DNA of 64,000 nt, from NCBI RefSeq assembly GCF_016591715.1, contig NZ_AP024109.1:2356001-2420000 (forward strand). Direction: 5' to 3'. The notes beneath the pieces were generated by a model, which worked only from the letters and a program-made list of their open reading frames with translations, ran no database searches and was not told the DNA's origin. Origin of the DNA: Mesorhizobium sp. J8. GTDB taxonomy: Bacteria; Pseudomonadota; Alphaproteobacteria; Rhizobiales; Rhizobiaceae. Shown here piece after piece: positions 10,629 through 15,923 of the stretch. Made by a program: the position numbers and the translations under genes. Positions within the stretch are counted from its first letter, which is position 1; every line of letters begins with the position of its first letter.

Positions 10629-11147
10629 ATGGACGACAAGAAGGCAGCGATCCTGAGCGAAATACCGCGGTTGCGGCGCTATGCGCGCTCGTTGCTGCGC
10701 GAGCGCGATTCCGCCGACGATCTCGTCCAGGATTGCCTGGAGCGGGCGCTTGTGCGGCTCGACAACTGGCAGACTGGAGAGAGCCCCCGGAGGTGGCTGT
10801 TTACGATCATGCATCACTTGTTCATCGACCAGATGCGCAAGGTCAACCGGCGCGGCGAGGCGGCGATGCTGCCTCTCGAAGCCGGAGAAGCCCAAGCCGC
10901 GCCCGCCGATCAGGTCGAGACCATCGCCTCGCGCGAGATCATGGATGCCCTGCAGGCGATCAGCCCCGATCGCCGCGCGGCATTGGTGATGGTCGCCATC
11001 GAGGGCTTTTCCTATGCCGAGGCCGCCAACATCCTTGGGGTGCCGGCCGGCACGCTGATGTCGCGCATCGCGCGTGGCCGCGAGGAATTGCGAGGATTGC
11101 TCGACGACACATCGCGCCGACGCTCGATAAGGATCGTCGAGAAATGA
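10629..11147 (+). CDS. ECF-type RNA polymerase sigma factor
   Basis: The 172-residue protein has only sigma regions 2 and 4, as expected of extracytoplasmic-function sigma factors. Region 2 includes RDSADDLVQDCLERAL (residues 27-42) and RRWLFTIMHHLFIDQMRK, the core-binding and -10 recognition helices. Region 4 (about 105-157) has AIEGFSYAEAANILGVPAGT, the helix-turn-helix that reads the -35. The stop overlaps the start of the next gene by 4 bases, and that gene encodes a one-pass membrane protein, the usual sigma/anti-sigma arrangement. The inducing signal is unknown. Confidence 0.93.
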   Translation: MDDKKAAILSEIPRLRRYARSLLRERDSADDLVQDCLERALVRLDNWQTGESPRRWLFTIMHHLFIDQMRKVNRRGEAAMLPLEAGEAQAAPADQVETIASREIMDALQAISPDRRAALVMVAIEGFSYAEAANILGVPAGTLMSRIARGREELRGLLDDTSRRRSIRIVEK

Positions 11148-11935
11148 CCCGCCGCGATTTCTCCGAACGCGATATCCATATGGCCCTCGACGGCGAACTG
11201 CCGGGCGAGGAGCGCATGGCCTATGACGCTTGGCTCGAGGCCAATCCCGAAATGAAGGCGAAATCCGCGCGCTACATTGCCGACCGCGCCGCCATGCGCG
11301 CCGCCTTCGCGGGCGTGATGGACGAGCCGGTGCCGGCGAGATTGCGGCAGGCGGTGTTTGGCGAGGTGCCCGTCAAGGCGCCGGCCTGGCGATCGCGCTG
11401 GTGGCTGTCGGCTGCCGCGGCCGTGATGCTCGCGGTCGGCGGGCTCGGCGGCTATGTCGCCGGAATCGACAGCATCGCCCGTGACGAAGGCGACGACCAG
11501 CTTGCCGAGCAGGCGATCGCAGCCCACGTCATCTACGCCGCGGAAAAGCGTCACGCCGTCGAGGTTCCGGCAAGCGACAAGGATCATCTCCAGACCTGGC
11601 TGTCGAACCGTGTCGGGTTGAAACTGGTGGCGCCCGATCTGGCGGCCGAGGGCTTCGATCTCGTCGGCGGCCGGCTGCTGCCGGCCGGTGACCAGGGGAA
11701 GGCGGCGATGCTGCTTTATGAGGACGCCAAGGGCGAGCGCATCTCGCTCTATGTCACCGCCGAATCGTCGGAGACATCCAAGGGCACCTACGCGGCCAAG
11801 GCCGGCGGACCGGAGGCTGTCTACTGGCTGGACAAGGGCTATGCCTGCGCGGTCGTCGGCTCGTTGCCGCCCGAGCGCCTGTCGGATGTCGCAAAGAGCG
11901 CCTATGGCCAGCTCGTGGCCGGCATATCGAGCTGA
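11144..11935 (+). CDS. transmembrane anti-sigma factor
   Basis: The 263-residue protein has an N-terminal cytoplasmic part beginning MTRRDFSERDIHMALDGELPG, like the sigma-binding domain of many rhizobial anti-sigma proteins, one membrane helix at about 87-108, and a periplasmic domain of about 150 residues. No HxxxCxxC zinc motif is present, so it is not of the ZAS subtype. Co-translation with the sigma gene (ATGA overlap) makes it the likely partner that holds the sigma inactive until an envelope signal is sensed. The IS630 element begins about 60 bases after its stop and leaves it intact. Confidence 0.85.
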   Translation: MTRRDFSERDIHMALDGELPGEERMAYDAWLEANPEMKAKSARYIADRAAMRAAFAGVMDEPVPARLRQAVFGEVPVKAPAWRSRWWLSAAAAVMLAVGGLGGYVAGIDSIARDEGDDQLAEQAIAAHVIYAAEKRHAVEVPASDKDHLQTWLSNRVGLKLVAPDLAAEGFDLVGGRLLPAGDQGKAAMLLYEDAKGERISLYVTAESSETSKGTYAAKAGGPEAVYWLDKGYACAVVGSLPPERLSDVAKSAYGQLVAGISS

Positions 11936-12054
11936 ATCGCCTGCGTTTTCGGCGGCCGGCAGTCCTTTGGACGGCAATTCTGTTCAAACGCTAGAGCGTT
12001 TCATAGCTTGATTGAATCGGAGGGGATTCCCGCTCGGCCTGATTTGTGATTCAA

Positions 12055-12082
12055 GATGCTGGCTGGATAGGAGGCCAGCATC
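12055..12082 (+). promoter_or_regulatory. hairpin presenting the transposase ribosome site
   Basis: GATGCTGGC (12055-12063) and GCCAGCATC (12074-12082) form a perfect 9-bp stem. The 10-base loop holds most of the AGGAGG ribosome site, and the ATG follows 2 bases after the stem. Such a structure could limit translation of the transposase; this is inference from sequence. Confidence 0.5.
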
Positions 12083-12084
12083 TG

Positions 12085-13032
12085 ATGGTTCGACCTCTTT
12101 CCGATGATTTACGCGAGCGGGTTGTTGCGGCGGTTTTGAGTGGCGAGAGCCGCCGGTCGGCCGCCAAGCGGTTCGGTATCGCAAATTCGACAGCCGTGAA
12201 ATTGTTGCAGCGTCATCAGGCAACCGGCTCGGTGGCGCCGGGCAAGATGGGTGGCCACCGTAAGCGGGTTCTGGAACCGCATCGAGCCTTCATCGTGGAG
12301 CGGATCAACCAGACCTCTGATCTGTCGCTACATCGGCTGAAGGACGAGTTGGCCGCGCGCGGGGTCAAGGTCTCGCACAATGCGGTGTGGCAGTTCCTGC
12401 GCCGCGAAGGGCTAAGCTTCAAAAAAACGCTGTTCGCCCTTGAGCAGGCACGTGCCGATATTGCCCGTCGGCGCCAGCGATGGCGATCCTGGCAGGCCGG
12501 CCTCGATCCCCAATGCCTGGTCTTCATCGATGAGACCTGGATCAAGACCAACATGGCTCCCCTGCGCGGCTGGGGGCCGAAGGGCAAGCGGCTGCGCGGC
12601 CTGGCTCCACATGGTCATTGGCGCACGCTGACTTTCCTCGGCGCGCTGCGCTGTGATCGGCTCGCGGCACCTTGCGTCTTCGACGGACCGATCAACGGTC
12701 AATGCTTCCGCGCCTATGTCGAGCAGCAGCTCATCACCGTGCTGAAGCCCGGCGACATCGTCATCATGGACAACCTGGGCAGCCATAAGTCGGCGGCCAT
12801 CAGGCAGATGATCAAAGCCGCTGGCGCCAGGCTCTGGTACCTGCCGCCCTACTCACCGGACCTCAATCCGATCGAGCAGGCCTTCGCCAAGATCAAGCAC
12901 TGGATGCGCCAGGCGCAGAAACGCACCGTCGAGGACACTTGGCGACACATCGGCCACCTCGTCGAAGCCATCGAGGCAGCCGAATGCAAGAACTACTTCG
13001 AAAACGCCGGATACGCTTCCGTCAAAACATGA
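12085..13032 (+). CDS. IS630-family DDE transposase
   Basis: The 315-residue transposase has an N-terminal helix-turn-helix (RPLSDDLRERVVAAVLSGES onward, with SAAKRFGIANSTAVKLL) that binds the element ends. The catalytic domain carries the acidic triad in FIDETWIK, IMDNLGSHKS and PDLNPIEQAFAKIK, giving D-D-E with the NPIE form usual for IS630. The frame is intact end to end, so the element may be active. ATG 12085 follows an AGGAGG site; the frame is open upstream to 12046 but that part is inside the terminal repeat region. Confidence 0.95.
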   Translation: MVRPLSDDLRERVVAAVLSGESRRSAAKRFGIANSTAVKLLQRHQATGSVAPGKMGGHRKRVLEPHRAFIVERINQTSDLSLHRLKDELAARGVKVSHNAVWQFLRREGLSFKKTLFALEQARADIARRRQRWRSWQAGLDPQCLVFIDETWIKTNMAPLRGWGPKGKRLRGLAPHGHWRTLTFLGALRCDRLAAPCVFDGPINGQCFRAYVEQQLITVLKPGDIVIMDNLGSHKSAAIRQMIKAAGARLWYLPPYSPDLNPIEQAFAKIKHWMRQAQKRTVEDTWRHIGHLVEAIEAAECKNYFENAGYASVKT

Positions 13033-13189
13033 AAGACTCTAGGCCCTCTGCTGTCGCCGCGGAAGCTGTCACAATTCGGCCCTAATCAAGGAGCGATAGC
13101 GCTTGATGGATACTGCCGCTTCGGCCAGTATTCGCGACGCATCCACCGGGGCCGTTTCTTAAACCCAATCGAGGTTCTCCCAAGCCCGC

Positions 13190-14287
13190 ATGCCTGCCGA
13201 GATCCGCAAGGCCCGCGCGTCAGACGTCGATGACCTCGCCGCCATCGAGAAGGCTGTTTTTCCGGGCGACAGGCTCTCGCGCCGTTCCTTCCGCCAGTTC
13301 ATCGAACGCGAAACCGCCGAGATGCTGGTGGCCGAGAATGAAGGCCGCGTCGCCGGTTATGCCGTGGTGCTGTTCCGCAAGGGAAGCGGCGTGGCGCGGC
13401 TCTATTCCATCGCCGTCGGTCCCTTCTTCGGCCGTCTCGGCATCGGCCGGCTTCTGCTGGCCGCCGCCGAGGAAGCGGCCTTCGAGCACGACCGGCTGTT
13501 GCTGCGCCTCGAAGTGCGCGAGGACAACCAGCGCGCTATCCGCATCTACGAAAAAGCCGGCTACCGGAAATTGGGCCGCGAGCCCGATTATTACGAGGAT
13601 GGCGCGACGGCGCTGCGCTATGAAAAGACGCTGCGCGGCGACACGCCGACCGCGACCAACGTGCCGTTCTACCAGCAGACCTGCGAGTTCACCTGCGGCC
13701 CGTGCTGTCTGATGATGGCGATGGCCAATTTCGACCGTGGCTTCGTGCCCGACCCGGTCATGGAAATCCGTCTGTGGCGCGAGGCCACCACGGTCTTCAT
13801 GATGTCGGGTCCCGGCGGTTGCGAGCCCTTCGGCCTGGCCGTCGCCGGCTATGAAAGCGGCCTTGCCGCCGAGATATTCGTCTCCTTCTACGGCGCGCTG
13901 TTCCTGCAATCGGTGAGGAGCGAGGACAAGCGCCGGGTGATGGAGCTTGCCCAGGTCGATTTTCGCCGCCGCGCCGAGCTTTACGGCATCCCTGTCAACT
14001 ACCGTCCGTTCGGCATCGGCGACATTCGGAACGCCTTGGCCGAGGGCAAGCTGGTGGTGGTGCTGATCAGCGGCTTCCTGATGTTCGGCAAGAAGGTGCC
14101 GCACTGGGTGCTGGCCATCGGCGACGATGGCGACCATATCCTGATCCACGACCCCTGGGTCGAGGATGAGAGGCAGGAAACGATCCTCGATGCCGCGAAC
14201 ATTCCGGTGCCCTACGACATCTTCATGAACATGGCGCAGTTCGGCCGCGACGGCTTGCGCGCGGCCATCACTCTGGGAAAACGCTGA
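13190..14287 (+). CDS. GNAT acetyltransferase fused to a C39-like cysteine peptidase
   Basis: The 365-residue protein joins two domains. Residues 1-150 are a GNAT (RimI-like) fold with SIAVGPFFGRLGIGRLLL as the acetyl-CoA loop and NQRAIRIYEKAGYRKLG as motif B. Residues 155-365 are a papain-like C39-type domain: YQQTCEFTCGPCC contains the oxyanion Gln and the likely nucleophile Cys169, with His305 (VPHWVLAIG) and Asp321 (IHDPW) completing a plausible triad. It ends 4 bases before a RimK-type ligase gene. Related fusions beside ATP-grasp ligases have been predicted to modify peptides. The natural target is unknown, and it may act on peptides rather than ribosomal proteins. Confidence 0.85.
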   Translation: MPAEIRKARASDVDDLAAIEKAVFPGDRLSRRSFRQFIERETAEMLVAENEGRVAGYAVVLFRKGSGVARLYSIAVGPFFGRLGIGRLLLAAAEEAAFEHDRLLLRLEVREDNQRAIRIYEKAGYRKLGREPDYYEDGATALRYEKTLRGDTPTATNVPFYQQTCEFTCGPCCLMMAMANFDRGFVPDPVMEIRLWREATTVFMMSGPGGCEPFGLAVAGYESGLAAEIFVSFYGALFLQSVRSEDKRRVMELAQVDFRRRAELYGIPVNYRPFGIGDIRNALAEGKLVVVLISGFLMFGKKVPHWVLAIGDDGDHILIHDPWVEDERQETILDAANIPVPYDIFMNMAQFGRDGLRAAITLGKR

Positions 14288-14291
14288 GACA

Positions 14292-15755
14292 ATGACCTGG
14301 GTTATCCTGACAGGCAGGCAGAACGACATCGATCAGGTGGCCACACCTCACAAGATCATCACCAACCGCGATTATCTCGCGCATCCGGCGCTGTTTCGCG
14401 GCCAGCGGCCGAAAGTGATCAACCTGTCGAACAATTATGGCTACCAGAGCCGCGGCTACTATGCCTCGCTGCTCGCCGGCTCGCGCGGCCACCGGGTGAT
14501 CCCGACGGTTGAGACGATGATCGACCTTTCGGAGCGCAAACTCTACGAGCACGCGCTGCCGGAGCTCGAGCTTGCCTTGAACAAATGTCGCAAGGATCTC
14601 GGCGGGGCGTTTCCGGCGAAGGTCGCGATCTTCTTCGGCATCGGACCGTCGAAAGTGTGGGACCGTTTCGCCAAGCTGTTGTTCGACTGGTTCCGCGCGC
14701 CGGCGCTCGAGGTCCATATTAAGGACAGCGCCGAATGGGCCTCGATCCGCAAGATCGGCTTCCTGCCGCTCGCCCGCATGACCGAGGATGAGGAAGAGTT
14801 CTTCCTGCAATGCCTGGACACCTACACCAATCGCGAGTGGCGCGACACCAAGGGCCGCACGCCGGCGCGCTATACGTTCGCGACGCTGGTCGACCCGCAT
14901 GAGGAATTGCCGCCGTCGGAAATCTCCTCGCTGCGCTATTGGGCAAGGATCGCCGAGAAGATGGGCGTGGAAGTCGAGCCGATCACCAGGAAGGACCTCG
15001 CCAAGCTCGCCAATTACGACGCGCTGTTCATCCGCGAGACCACGTCGATCTCCAACCACACTTATCGCTTCGCGCGCCGTGCTCAGCAGGAAGGCATGCC
15101 GGTGATCGACGATCCGCTGTCGATGATCCGCTGCACCAACAAGGTCTATCTCAACGAGCTGATGACCTACAACAAGGTGCCGGTGCCGCCGACGGTGATG
15201 ATCGCCGGCACGTCCGACTTCGAAGTGGCGGCGCAGACGCTGGGCTTCCCGCTGGTGCTGAAGATCCCGGATTCGTCCTTCTCGCGCGGCGTCAAGAAGT
15301 GCGAGAGCATGGCGGAGCTCACCAAGCTTGCGACCGAATGGCTGGAAGATTCCGATCTCCTGATCGCGCAGAAATTCATCCCGACCGAATATGATTGGCG
15401 CGTCGGCGTGCTCGGGGGACAGCCGCTGTTTGCCGTGCACTACCTGATGGCGAAGAAGCACTGGCAGATCGTCAACCACAAGTCCAGCGGCAAGCCCGAC
15501 CAGGGCGGCATCAAGACCTTCACGCTGAAGCAGACGCCGCCGCATGTCGTCGAAACGGCGGTGCGGGCGGCAAAATGCATCGGTGACGGGCTCTACGGCG
15601 TCGACCTCAAGGAAACCAAGGACGGCGTCTTCGTCATCGAGGTCAACGACAACCCCAACCTCGACCATGGCTGGGAGGATTCCGGCGAGAAGGACGAGCT
15701 CTGGGTGCGGCTGACGCAGTGGTTCTTGGAGCGCCTGGAGAGGCCGGAGAAGTAG
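14292..15755 (+). CDS. RimK-like ATP-grasp ligase with N-terminal RLAN domain
   Basis: The 487-residue protein has an N-terminal alpha/beta region of about 250 residues, consistent with the RimK-like ATP-grasp N-terminal (RLAN) domain, and a C-terminal ATP-grasp domain. The latter includes IRCTNKVYLNELM, PLVLKIPDSSFSRGV (ATP-binding lysine and Gly/Ser loop), EYDWRVGVLGG and the Mg-binding VFVIEVNDNPNLDHG. RimK-type enzymes add amino acids such as glutamate to peptide or protein ends using ATP. It is translated right after the GNAT-C39 gene, so the two products probably act on the same substrate. Only 4 bases separate the stop from an octamer repeat array. Confidence 0.88.
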   Translation: MTWVILTGRQNDIDQVATPHKIITNRDYLAHPALFRGQRPKVINLSNNYGYQSRGYYASLLAGSRGHRVIPTVETMIDLSERKLYEHALPELELALNKCRKDLGGAFPAKVAIFFGIGPSKVWDRFAKLLFDWFRAPALEVHIKDSAEWASIRKIGFLPLARMTEDEEEFFLQCLDTYTNREWRDTKGRTPARYTFATLVDPHEELPPSEISSLRYWARIAEKMGVEVEPITRKDLAKLANYDALFIRETTSISNHTYRFARRAQQEGMPVIDDPLSMIRCTNKVYLNELMTYNKVPVPPTVMIAGTSDFEVAAQTLGFPLVLKIPDSSFSRGVKKCESMAELTKLATEWLEDSDLLIAQKFIPTEYDWRVGVLGGQPLFAVHYLMAKKHWQIVNHKSSGKPDQGGIKTFTLKQTPPHVVETAVRAAKCIGDGLYGVDLKETKDGVFVIEVNDNPNLDHGWEDSGEKDELWVRLTQWFLERLERPEK

Positions 15756-15759
15756 AGGG

Positions 15760-15897
15760 GAACTGAGGAACTGAAGAACTGAAGAACTGAAGGGATTAGG
15801 AACTGATGGACTGATAACGCAAGGGTGGTTCCGCCAGACACTTCAATTCTTCAATTCTTCAGTTCTTCAGTTCTTCAGTCCTTCAATTCCCCAATTC
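15760..15897 (+). repeat. inverted arrays of an 8-bp repeat (GAACTGAA)
   Basis: Seven tandem octamers close to GAACTGAA run from 15760 to 15815. After a 26-base spacer, seven octamers of the reverse complement (TTCAGTTC/TTCAATTC) run from 15842 to 15897. The RNA could fold into a hairpin of roughly 50 bp. It lies just after the rimK-like stop and before the DUF3303 gene. An analogous array with a different octamer is at 53362-53465. Confidence 0.85.
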
Positions 15898-15923
15898 CCA
15901 ATCACTCAAACCGAGGGAAACGA

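Follow-up and report, generated by a model that had tools for sequence, protein, structure and literature searches.

A RimI/Ard1-type acetyltransferase and an RLAN-domain ATP-grasp ligase form the conserved core of a candidate N-acetyl-peptide module with an optional DUF3335 peptidase

ATP-grasp ligases of the RimK/LysX type couple an amino acid to a carboxylate, and GNAT acetyltransferases of the RimI/Ard1 type acetylate alpha-amines; RimK tails ribosomal protein S6 and RimI acetylates S18. To our knowledge, the characterized system with this pair of activities in this order is the synthetase (Ngg) of N-acetylglutaminylglutamine amide (NAGGN). In an excerpt of its description, the product of Ngg is an N-acetylated dipeptide that is then amidated by AsnO, and a peptidase gene is present in the operon (PMC8070244). 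RimB is presented, in extracted text, as an aspartic protease that removes from RpsF the glutamates added by RimK (PMC12239564), and in the synthesis of mammalian N-acetylaspartylglutamate (NAAG) a RimK-like ATP-grasp enzyme attaches glutamate to an N-acetyl amino acid (excerpt of PMC3872778). A fusion of DUF3335 with GNAT has already been published as a candidate peptide ligase or acetylase, with reference to Iyer et al. 2009 (excerpt of PMC10318531). Here, we analyzed a gene pair from Mesorhizobium sp. J8, located in a stretch of 64,000 nucleotides (contig NZ_AP024109.1, positions 2,356,001 to 2,420,000), referred to as the window. A first-pass annotation of this DNA had described a GNAT-C39 peptidase fusion paired with an RLAN-RimK ligase as a putative peptide-tagging or peptide-modification system. 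The two genes are as follows.

13190..14287, + strand: gene A, 365 aa; GNAT domain, RimI/Ard1-like (residues ~1-150), followed by a DUF3335 papain-like peptidase domain (158-362)
14292..15755, + strand: gene B, 487 aa; RLAN domain (26-172) followed by a RimK/LysX-type ATP-grasp ligase (about 194-484)

The conserved core of this module consisted of the RimI/Ard1-type GNAT and the RLAN ligase. The peptidase did not belong to it, since acetyltransferase and ligase persisted without the peptidase in many lineages, Hyphomonas and Chelativorans among them. Profile searches were performed for RLAN and for DUF3335 (at E 0.001) in a sample of 398 Pseudomonadota genomes. Open reading frames (ORFs) came from a custom script rather than a trained gene finder. 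RLAN was detected in 72 of the genomes, 15 of which yielded no DUF3335 match at this threshold; hence, of the proposed partnership of ligase, acetyl-capping enzyme and peptidase, the first two stood together, and the peptidase was not supported as an equal member. We examined 56 loci out of the 75 RLAN copies in the sample: the window and 55 RLAN-bearing loci among 60 stretches picked by hand to span genera. In 55 of the 56, RLAN had a GNAT of the same family nearby, at a distance of no more than 500 bases in 54 loci and of 1.4 kb in L055. The lone exception was L027 from genome G193, whose GNAT-DUF3335 gene is located on another contig. A further 80 named loci, the best 80 of 585 and skewed to Alphaproteobacteria, comprised 49 with GNAT-DUF3335, 28 with a lone GNAT, two (L113 and L114) with a weaker GNAT that lay directly upstream and was confirmed by Pfam though under the 100-bit line, and one (L063) cut by a contig end. 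Here the GNAT was found near RLAN in 79 loci, within 500 bases in all of these except L139 (1.4 kb). GNAT and RLAN also occurred in one chain, namely, in 36 of the 120 homologues listed for the Thalassospira-type protein (the best 120 of 1988 matches), and such fusions among the matches listed included Cohaesibacter and metagenome-assembled genomes labelled Rhodothermales and Bacteroidetes.

To follow the presence of the peptidase, we mapped DUF3335 onto RLAN trees. The tree of 54 rows required 12 changes, 11 of which were forced by well-supported branches; less strict trees gave 13 changes with 12 forced (55 rows) and 16 changes with 13 forced (135 rows). Five rows scored as "GNAT alone" (L010, L015, L020, L060, and L061), whose genomes carry GNAT-DUF3335 elsewhere, were dropped from the 54-row tree, in which L113 and L114 were counted, and kept in the 55- and 135-row sets. 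For the 54- and 55-row trees, one row was kept for each state in every 70%-identity group, a thinning that favors changes because both states of a mixed group are retained. Shuffled labels on the 54-row tree needed about 15 changes, indicating that the peptidase trait follows the RLAN tree weakly. Some of the changes may represent gene replacement or transfer rather than loss.

Where the peptidase was present, its link to RLAN was not due to chance. DUF3335 occurred in 58 of the 398 genomes and together with RLAN in 57 (Fisher p about 1e-53, a value that overstates the linkage, as relatedness among the genomes violates independence). The two match starts lay no more than 3,510 bases apart in all of these genomes but G006 and G193, i.e., in 55 of the 57. 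The arrangement of the 55 varied: the peptidase gene preceded RLAN on the same strand in 29 and followed it on the same strand in 5, and the pair was divergent in 18 and convergent in 3. Closeness that is kept through rearrangement is good evidence of joint function, in line with the functional linkage claimed in the first-pass annotation, and the adjacency was not confined to this genome. In a family-level sample of 180 genomes, 54 gave a match and 30 short loci were read; these included the window and three of the genomes counted above (G051, G055, and G331). RLAN was located beside GNAT-DUF3335 in 28 of the 30 loci and at neither L155 nor L159.

Within the window, the two genes were separated by 4 bases between the stop of gene A (ending at 14287) and the ATG of gene B (starting at 14292), exactly as first annotated. 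In Pfam, gene A matched Acetyltransf_1 (residues 29-125, 66.7 bits versus a cut-off of 20.7) and DUF3335 (PF11814, "Peptidase_C39 like family"; residues 158-362, 252.8 bits versus 25), and thus had the domains of a GNAT-DUF3335 protein. The model of true C39 leader peptidases, PF03412, reached 15.8 bits (cut-off, 22) and PF13529 reached 21.3 bits (cut-off, 24). The peptidase domain with its Cys-His-Asp residues was therefore retained from the earlier description, and its name was changed from C39 to DUF3335. Gene B matched RLAN (PF14401; residues 26-172, 132.1 bits versus 25) and RimK ATP-grasp (residues 283-459, 37.5 bits versus 21); against the NCBIfam RimK family ligase model (TIGR00768) it scored 86.6 bits, under the cut-off of 143.4, although the RimK fold and Pfam domain do match. 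Gene A scored 81.4 bits against RimI (TIGR01575; cut-off, 86.4), but this cut-off alone is a weak test, since another RimI-like gene of the same genome misses it too (83.2 bits). The host genome is a single contig of 6.69 Mb, and the RLAN protein of the window shared 99% identity with its counterpart in Mesorhizobium sp. ORS3359.

Fold searches identified RimK, LysX, and ArgX as the closest solved relatives of the ligase, with the matches listed taken up by the ATP-grasp part (residues 191-487) and no fold identified for the RLAN domain (predicted template modeling score of the model, 0.63). For the GNAT, the closest solved relatives were RimI/Ard1, with resistance acetyltransferases at lower rank; the DUF3335 part was barely covered. 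Both proteins retained their active sites. The codons of the peptidase triad, counted from the gene start at 13190, are as follows.

13694..13696, + strand: codon of the nucleophile Cys169 (TGC)
14102..14104, + strand: codon of the catalytic His305 (CAC)
14150..14152, + strand: codon of Asp321 (GAC)

Among 88 aligned GNAT-DUF3335 proteins from RLAN genomes, many of them close relatives, Cys169, His305, and Gln163 were each present in all 88, and position 321 was occupied by Asp in 83 and by Glu in 5. Gln163 stands six residues ahead of Cys169, a spacing that we take to match papain. In the GNAT part, Glu108 was found in 88/88 and Tyr120 was mostly kept; these presumably correspond to the base and acid of RimI. 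Four DUF3335 proteins outside the RLAN pairing retained the peptidase residues and had lost GNAT Glu108. In gene B, K284, K324, D438, E450, and N452 were invariant in 41 of 41 RLAN proteins, as was the motif HWQI at 390-393. D438, E450, and N452 aligned with D248, E260, and N262 of the solved RimK structure 5zct, which we assume to be Mg ligands; the catalytic roles given to the invariant ligase residues are likewise our assumption. With the fold, the ATP-binding Lys, and the Mg-ligand residues all present, gene B qualifies as an ATP-grasp carboxylate-amine ligase. The triad and the intact ATP and Mg sites reported initially were thus borne out among relatives.

Acting together, a ligase and a GNAT would either produce a peptide with a capped N terminus or modify the termini of a protein. 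We favor, tentatively and with a probability of roughly 0.43, the reading that the module makes a short N-acetylated peptide, acting like NAGGN synthetase without belonging to it. The RLAN ligase would activate a carboxylate with ATP and join a presumed amino acid, and the GNAT would acetyl-cap the alpha-amine, probably in that order. The predicted product would be a small molecule, i.e., a short N-acetylated peptide such as N-acetylglutaminylglutamine (NAGG, the NAGGN precursor) or mammalian NAAG. DUF3335 would be an optional add-on that hydrolyzes or trims the product, putatively in the direction of turnover. Both gene products are probably cytoplasmic: in a 19-residue hydropathy scan, in which the usual membrane-segment threshold is 1.6, the gene B product peaked at 0.94 and the gene A product at 1.79, from residue 282, part of which is a strand in the structure model.

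The comparison with NAGGN synthesis shows likeness and difference. Ngg (TIGR03103), with AsnO and an M42 peptidase, resembles the module in combining GNAT and ATP-grasp, in the matching domain order of the fused forms, and in its operon peptidase. In contrast, the window protein has an RLAN domain and a RimK/LysX-like ATP-grasp, whereas the Ngg of G006 had cyanophycin synthetase as its next-best match in NCBIfam. Identity with NAGGN synthetase was rejected: gene A reached 21.7 bits against TIGR03103, under the cut-off of 569, and the host genome contained no ngg over the cut-off. Genome G006 (L011, 1496-12506) carried a complete NAGGN trio and then a same-strand cluster of GNAT-DUF3335, DUF2817, and DUF155 genes, with one ORF between trio and cluster and a few other ORFs interspersed. 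The likeness to the mammalian NAAG pathway (N-acetylaspartate acetyltransferase, RIMKLA/RIMKLB, ASPA) is one of analogy only.

Several observations weigh against a small-peptide product. RimI/Ard1 GNATs usually act on protein N termini and RimK on a protein C terminus, so that protein modification fits equally or better. The NAGGN-adjacent cluster is known from one genome, G006, and ngg was found in 9 of 72 RLAN genomes versus 9 of 80 RLAN-negative genomes (80 of 326 examined), neither co-occurring nor excluding. The peak of 1.79 leaves room for a membrane segment in the gene A product. RimK already has a partner protease, RimB (excerpt of PMC12239564), and this precedent together with the hydropathy peak shifts our view slightly away from the small peptide and slightly toward modification of protein termini. 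DUF155 neighbors (14 genomes) and ribosomal-protein neighbors (three RLAN groups) hint at translation. The deacylase link described below comes from one locus; one further close relative, in pieces, had no deacylase in a 3.4-kb stretch.

The main rival, which we consider somewhat unlikely and which keeps the earlier peptide-tagging idea alive beside the small peptide, is that the RLAN ligase tails a protein C terminus, the GNAT acetylates an N terminus, and DUF3335, where present, removes the tail. RimK, LysX, and ArgX, the closest solved relatives of the ligase, all use a protein acceptor, and RimI/Ard1 are those of the GNAT; no RimK over the family cut-off was found in the host genome. Of 38 genomes with DUF155 (RMND1 family), 14 had it no more than 8 kb from RLAN or DUF3335, and about 9 loci, from three RLAN groups, had genes for L21, L27, and Obg as neighbors. 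These ribosomal neighbors came from three groups only, however, and the neighbor and short-ORF surveys recovered no widely shared acceptor protein gene nearby. A second RimI-like gene of the host genome, located next to a TsaD/TsaB-family gene, speaks against this rival and led us to reject gene A as the housekeeping RimI. RimK-RimB is a known ligase-plus-protease pair, an ATP-grasp ligase genetically tied to a protease, but RimB is aspartic and the excerpted text mentions no acetyltransferase in the operon, whereas DUF3335 is papain-like and GNAT-fused (PMC12239564). Compared with RimK and LysX/ArgX, gene B shares the fold and the Mg-site residues, and LysX (3vpd) has the HW of HWQI; unlike them, gene B carries an extra N-terminal RLAN domain. 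Likewise, the GNAT of gene A has the RimI/Ard1 fold with E108 and mostly Y120 kept, but is fused to DUF3335 or tied to RLAN.

L21, L27, and Obg genes adjoined the pair in about 9-10 loci (L005, L135, L138, and others), which were mostly GNAT-only. In 15 of the 50 genomes with strong DUF2817 matches (62 matches; 35 genomes with weak matches only were left out), DUF2817 was located no more than 8 kb from RLAN or DUF3335. A reading of DUF2817 as an M14-type carboxypeptidase was set aside, and comparison with solved structures gave no relevant match. DUF2817 genes stood beside the module at L012 (11379-14315), L013, L016, and L023, and DUF155 genes at L012 and L016; both kinds of neighbor were concentrated in few families. 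The commonest neighbor after GNATs, present in 6 of 54 RLAN groups (best 25 clusters), reads as a short-chain dehydrogenase.

Maturation of a ribosomal precursor peptide, as in ribosomally synthesized and posttranslationally modified peptides, with the peptidase removing a leader, appeared extremely improbable. The peptidase is often missing, the leader peptidase family PF03412 stayed under its cut-off, and a BLASTP screen of short ORFs up to 1.5 kb from the module, from which a few dozen low-complexity queries dropped out, linked no such ORF to more than one other RLAN group (a fast-evolving or unlinked peptide could escape). The DUF3303 protein that had been put forward as a partner by position was rejected: of the 141 stretches surveyed (the window, 60 fetched and 80 named), 18 held a relative, and these 18 belonged to a single Mesorhizobium-type RLAN group. 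With no recurrent small gene and DUF3303 confined to Mesorhizobium-type loci, the precursor idea loses support. Quite improbable, too, was detoxification, in which a peptide-like compound would be acetylated and cleaved by the peptidase: the match of the GNAT fold to resistance acetyltransferases and the position of paralogous DUF3335 genes next to an oligopeptide-type transporter would fit, but the near-invariant ligase would be left without a role. At L041 (5136-15394), from the window's genus, an oligopeptide-type ABC transporter and a deacylase gene of the AstE/AspA type lay between two paralogues of DUF3335 whose GNAT parts were degenerate or missing. A defence system was rejected, as no PADLOC defence model matched.

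Ahead of the pair, the window contained an ECF-type (extracytoplasmic function) sigma factor gene with an overlapping ORF, 11144-11935 (together 10629-11935). The overlapping ORF had no Pfam match at E 0.001 and is a possible anti-sigma factor, and both families precede the pair in most other Mesorhizobium-type loci examined. An IS630-family element (about 11993-13038; transposase ORF, 12046-13032) lay between this ORF and the GNAT-DUF3335 gene. It was missing at the matching place in the relatives L051, L062, and L064 and thus may have altered the upstream region of the operon. Directly 3' of the ligase gene, 8-base repeats (GAACTGAA-like) at positions 15757-15900 made up a long hairpin (-72 kcal/mol, z -7.3), and similar repeats were found 3' of RLAN in the same three relatives.

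Beyond the small N-acetylated peptide favored here, a broader proposal, which we regard as unlikely, is that the RimI-type GNAT and the RLAN ligase, sometimes as one polypeptide, constitute a widespread N-acetyl-peptide synthase whose capped metabolite would be new to bacteria. DUF3335, DUF2817, and related hydrolases would then be exchangeable turnover enzymes in a counterpart of the NAAG cycle. Iyer et al. 2009 reportedly included the RLAN pairing among predicted amidoligase-peptidase systems. In open-licence papers, surveyed mostly by listing, we did not find the optional peptidase, the near-invariant GNAT, or the GNAT-RLAN fusions in print, nor did we recognize a functional study of the GNAT-RLAN pair; consistent with the first-pass annotation, no substrate was described there. 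The module thus occurs in 72 of 398 sampled Pseudomonadota genomes without a product described in that literature. The steady association of GNAT and ligase in many bacteria, set against the fluctuating presence of the peptidase, points to a capped product, and the GNAT-ligase pair as minimal unit offers a clean two-gene or one-gene, peptidase-free system in which this product may be found.
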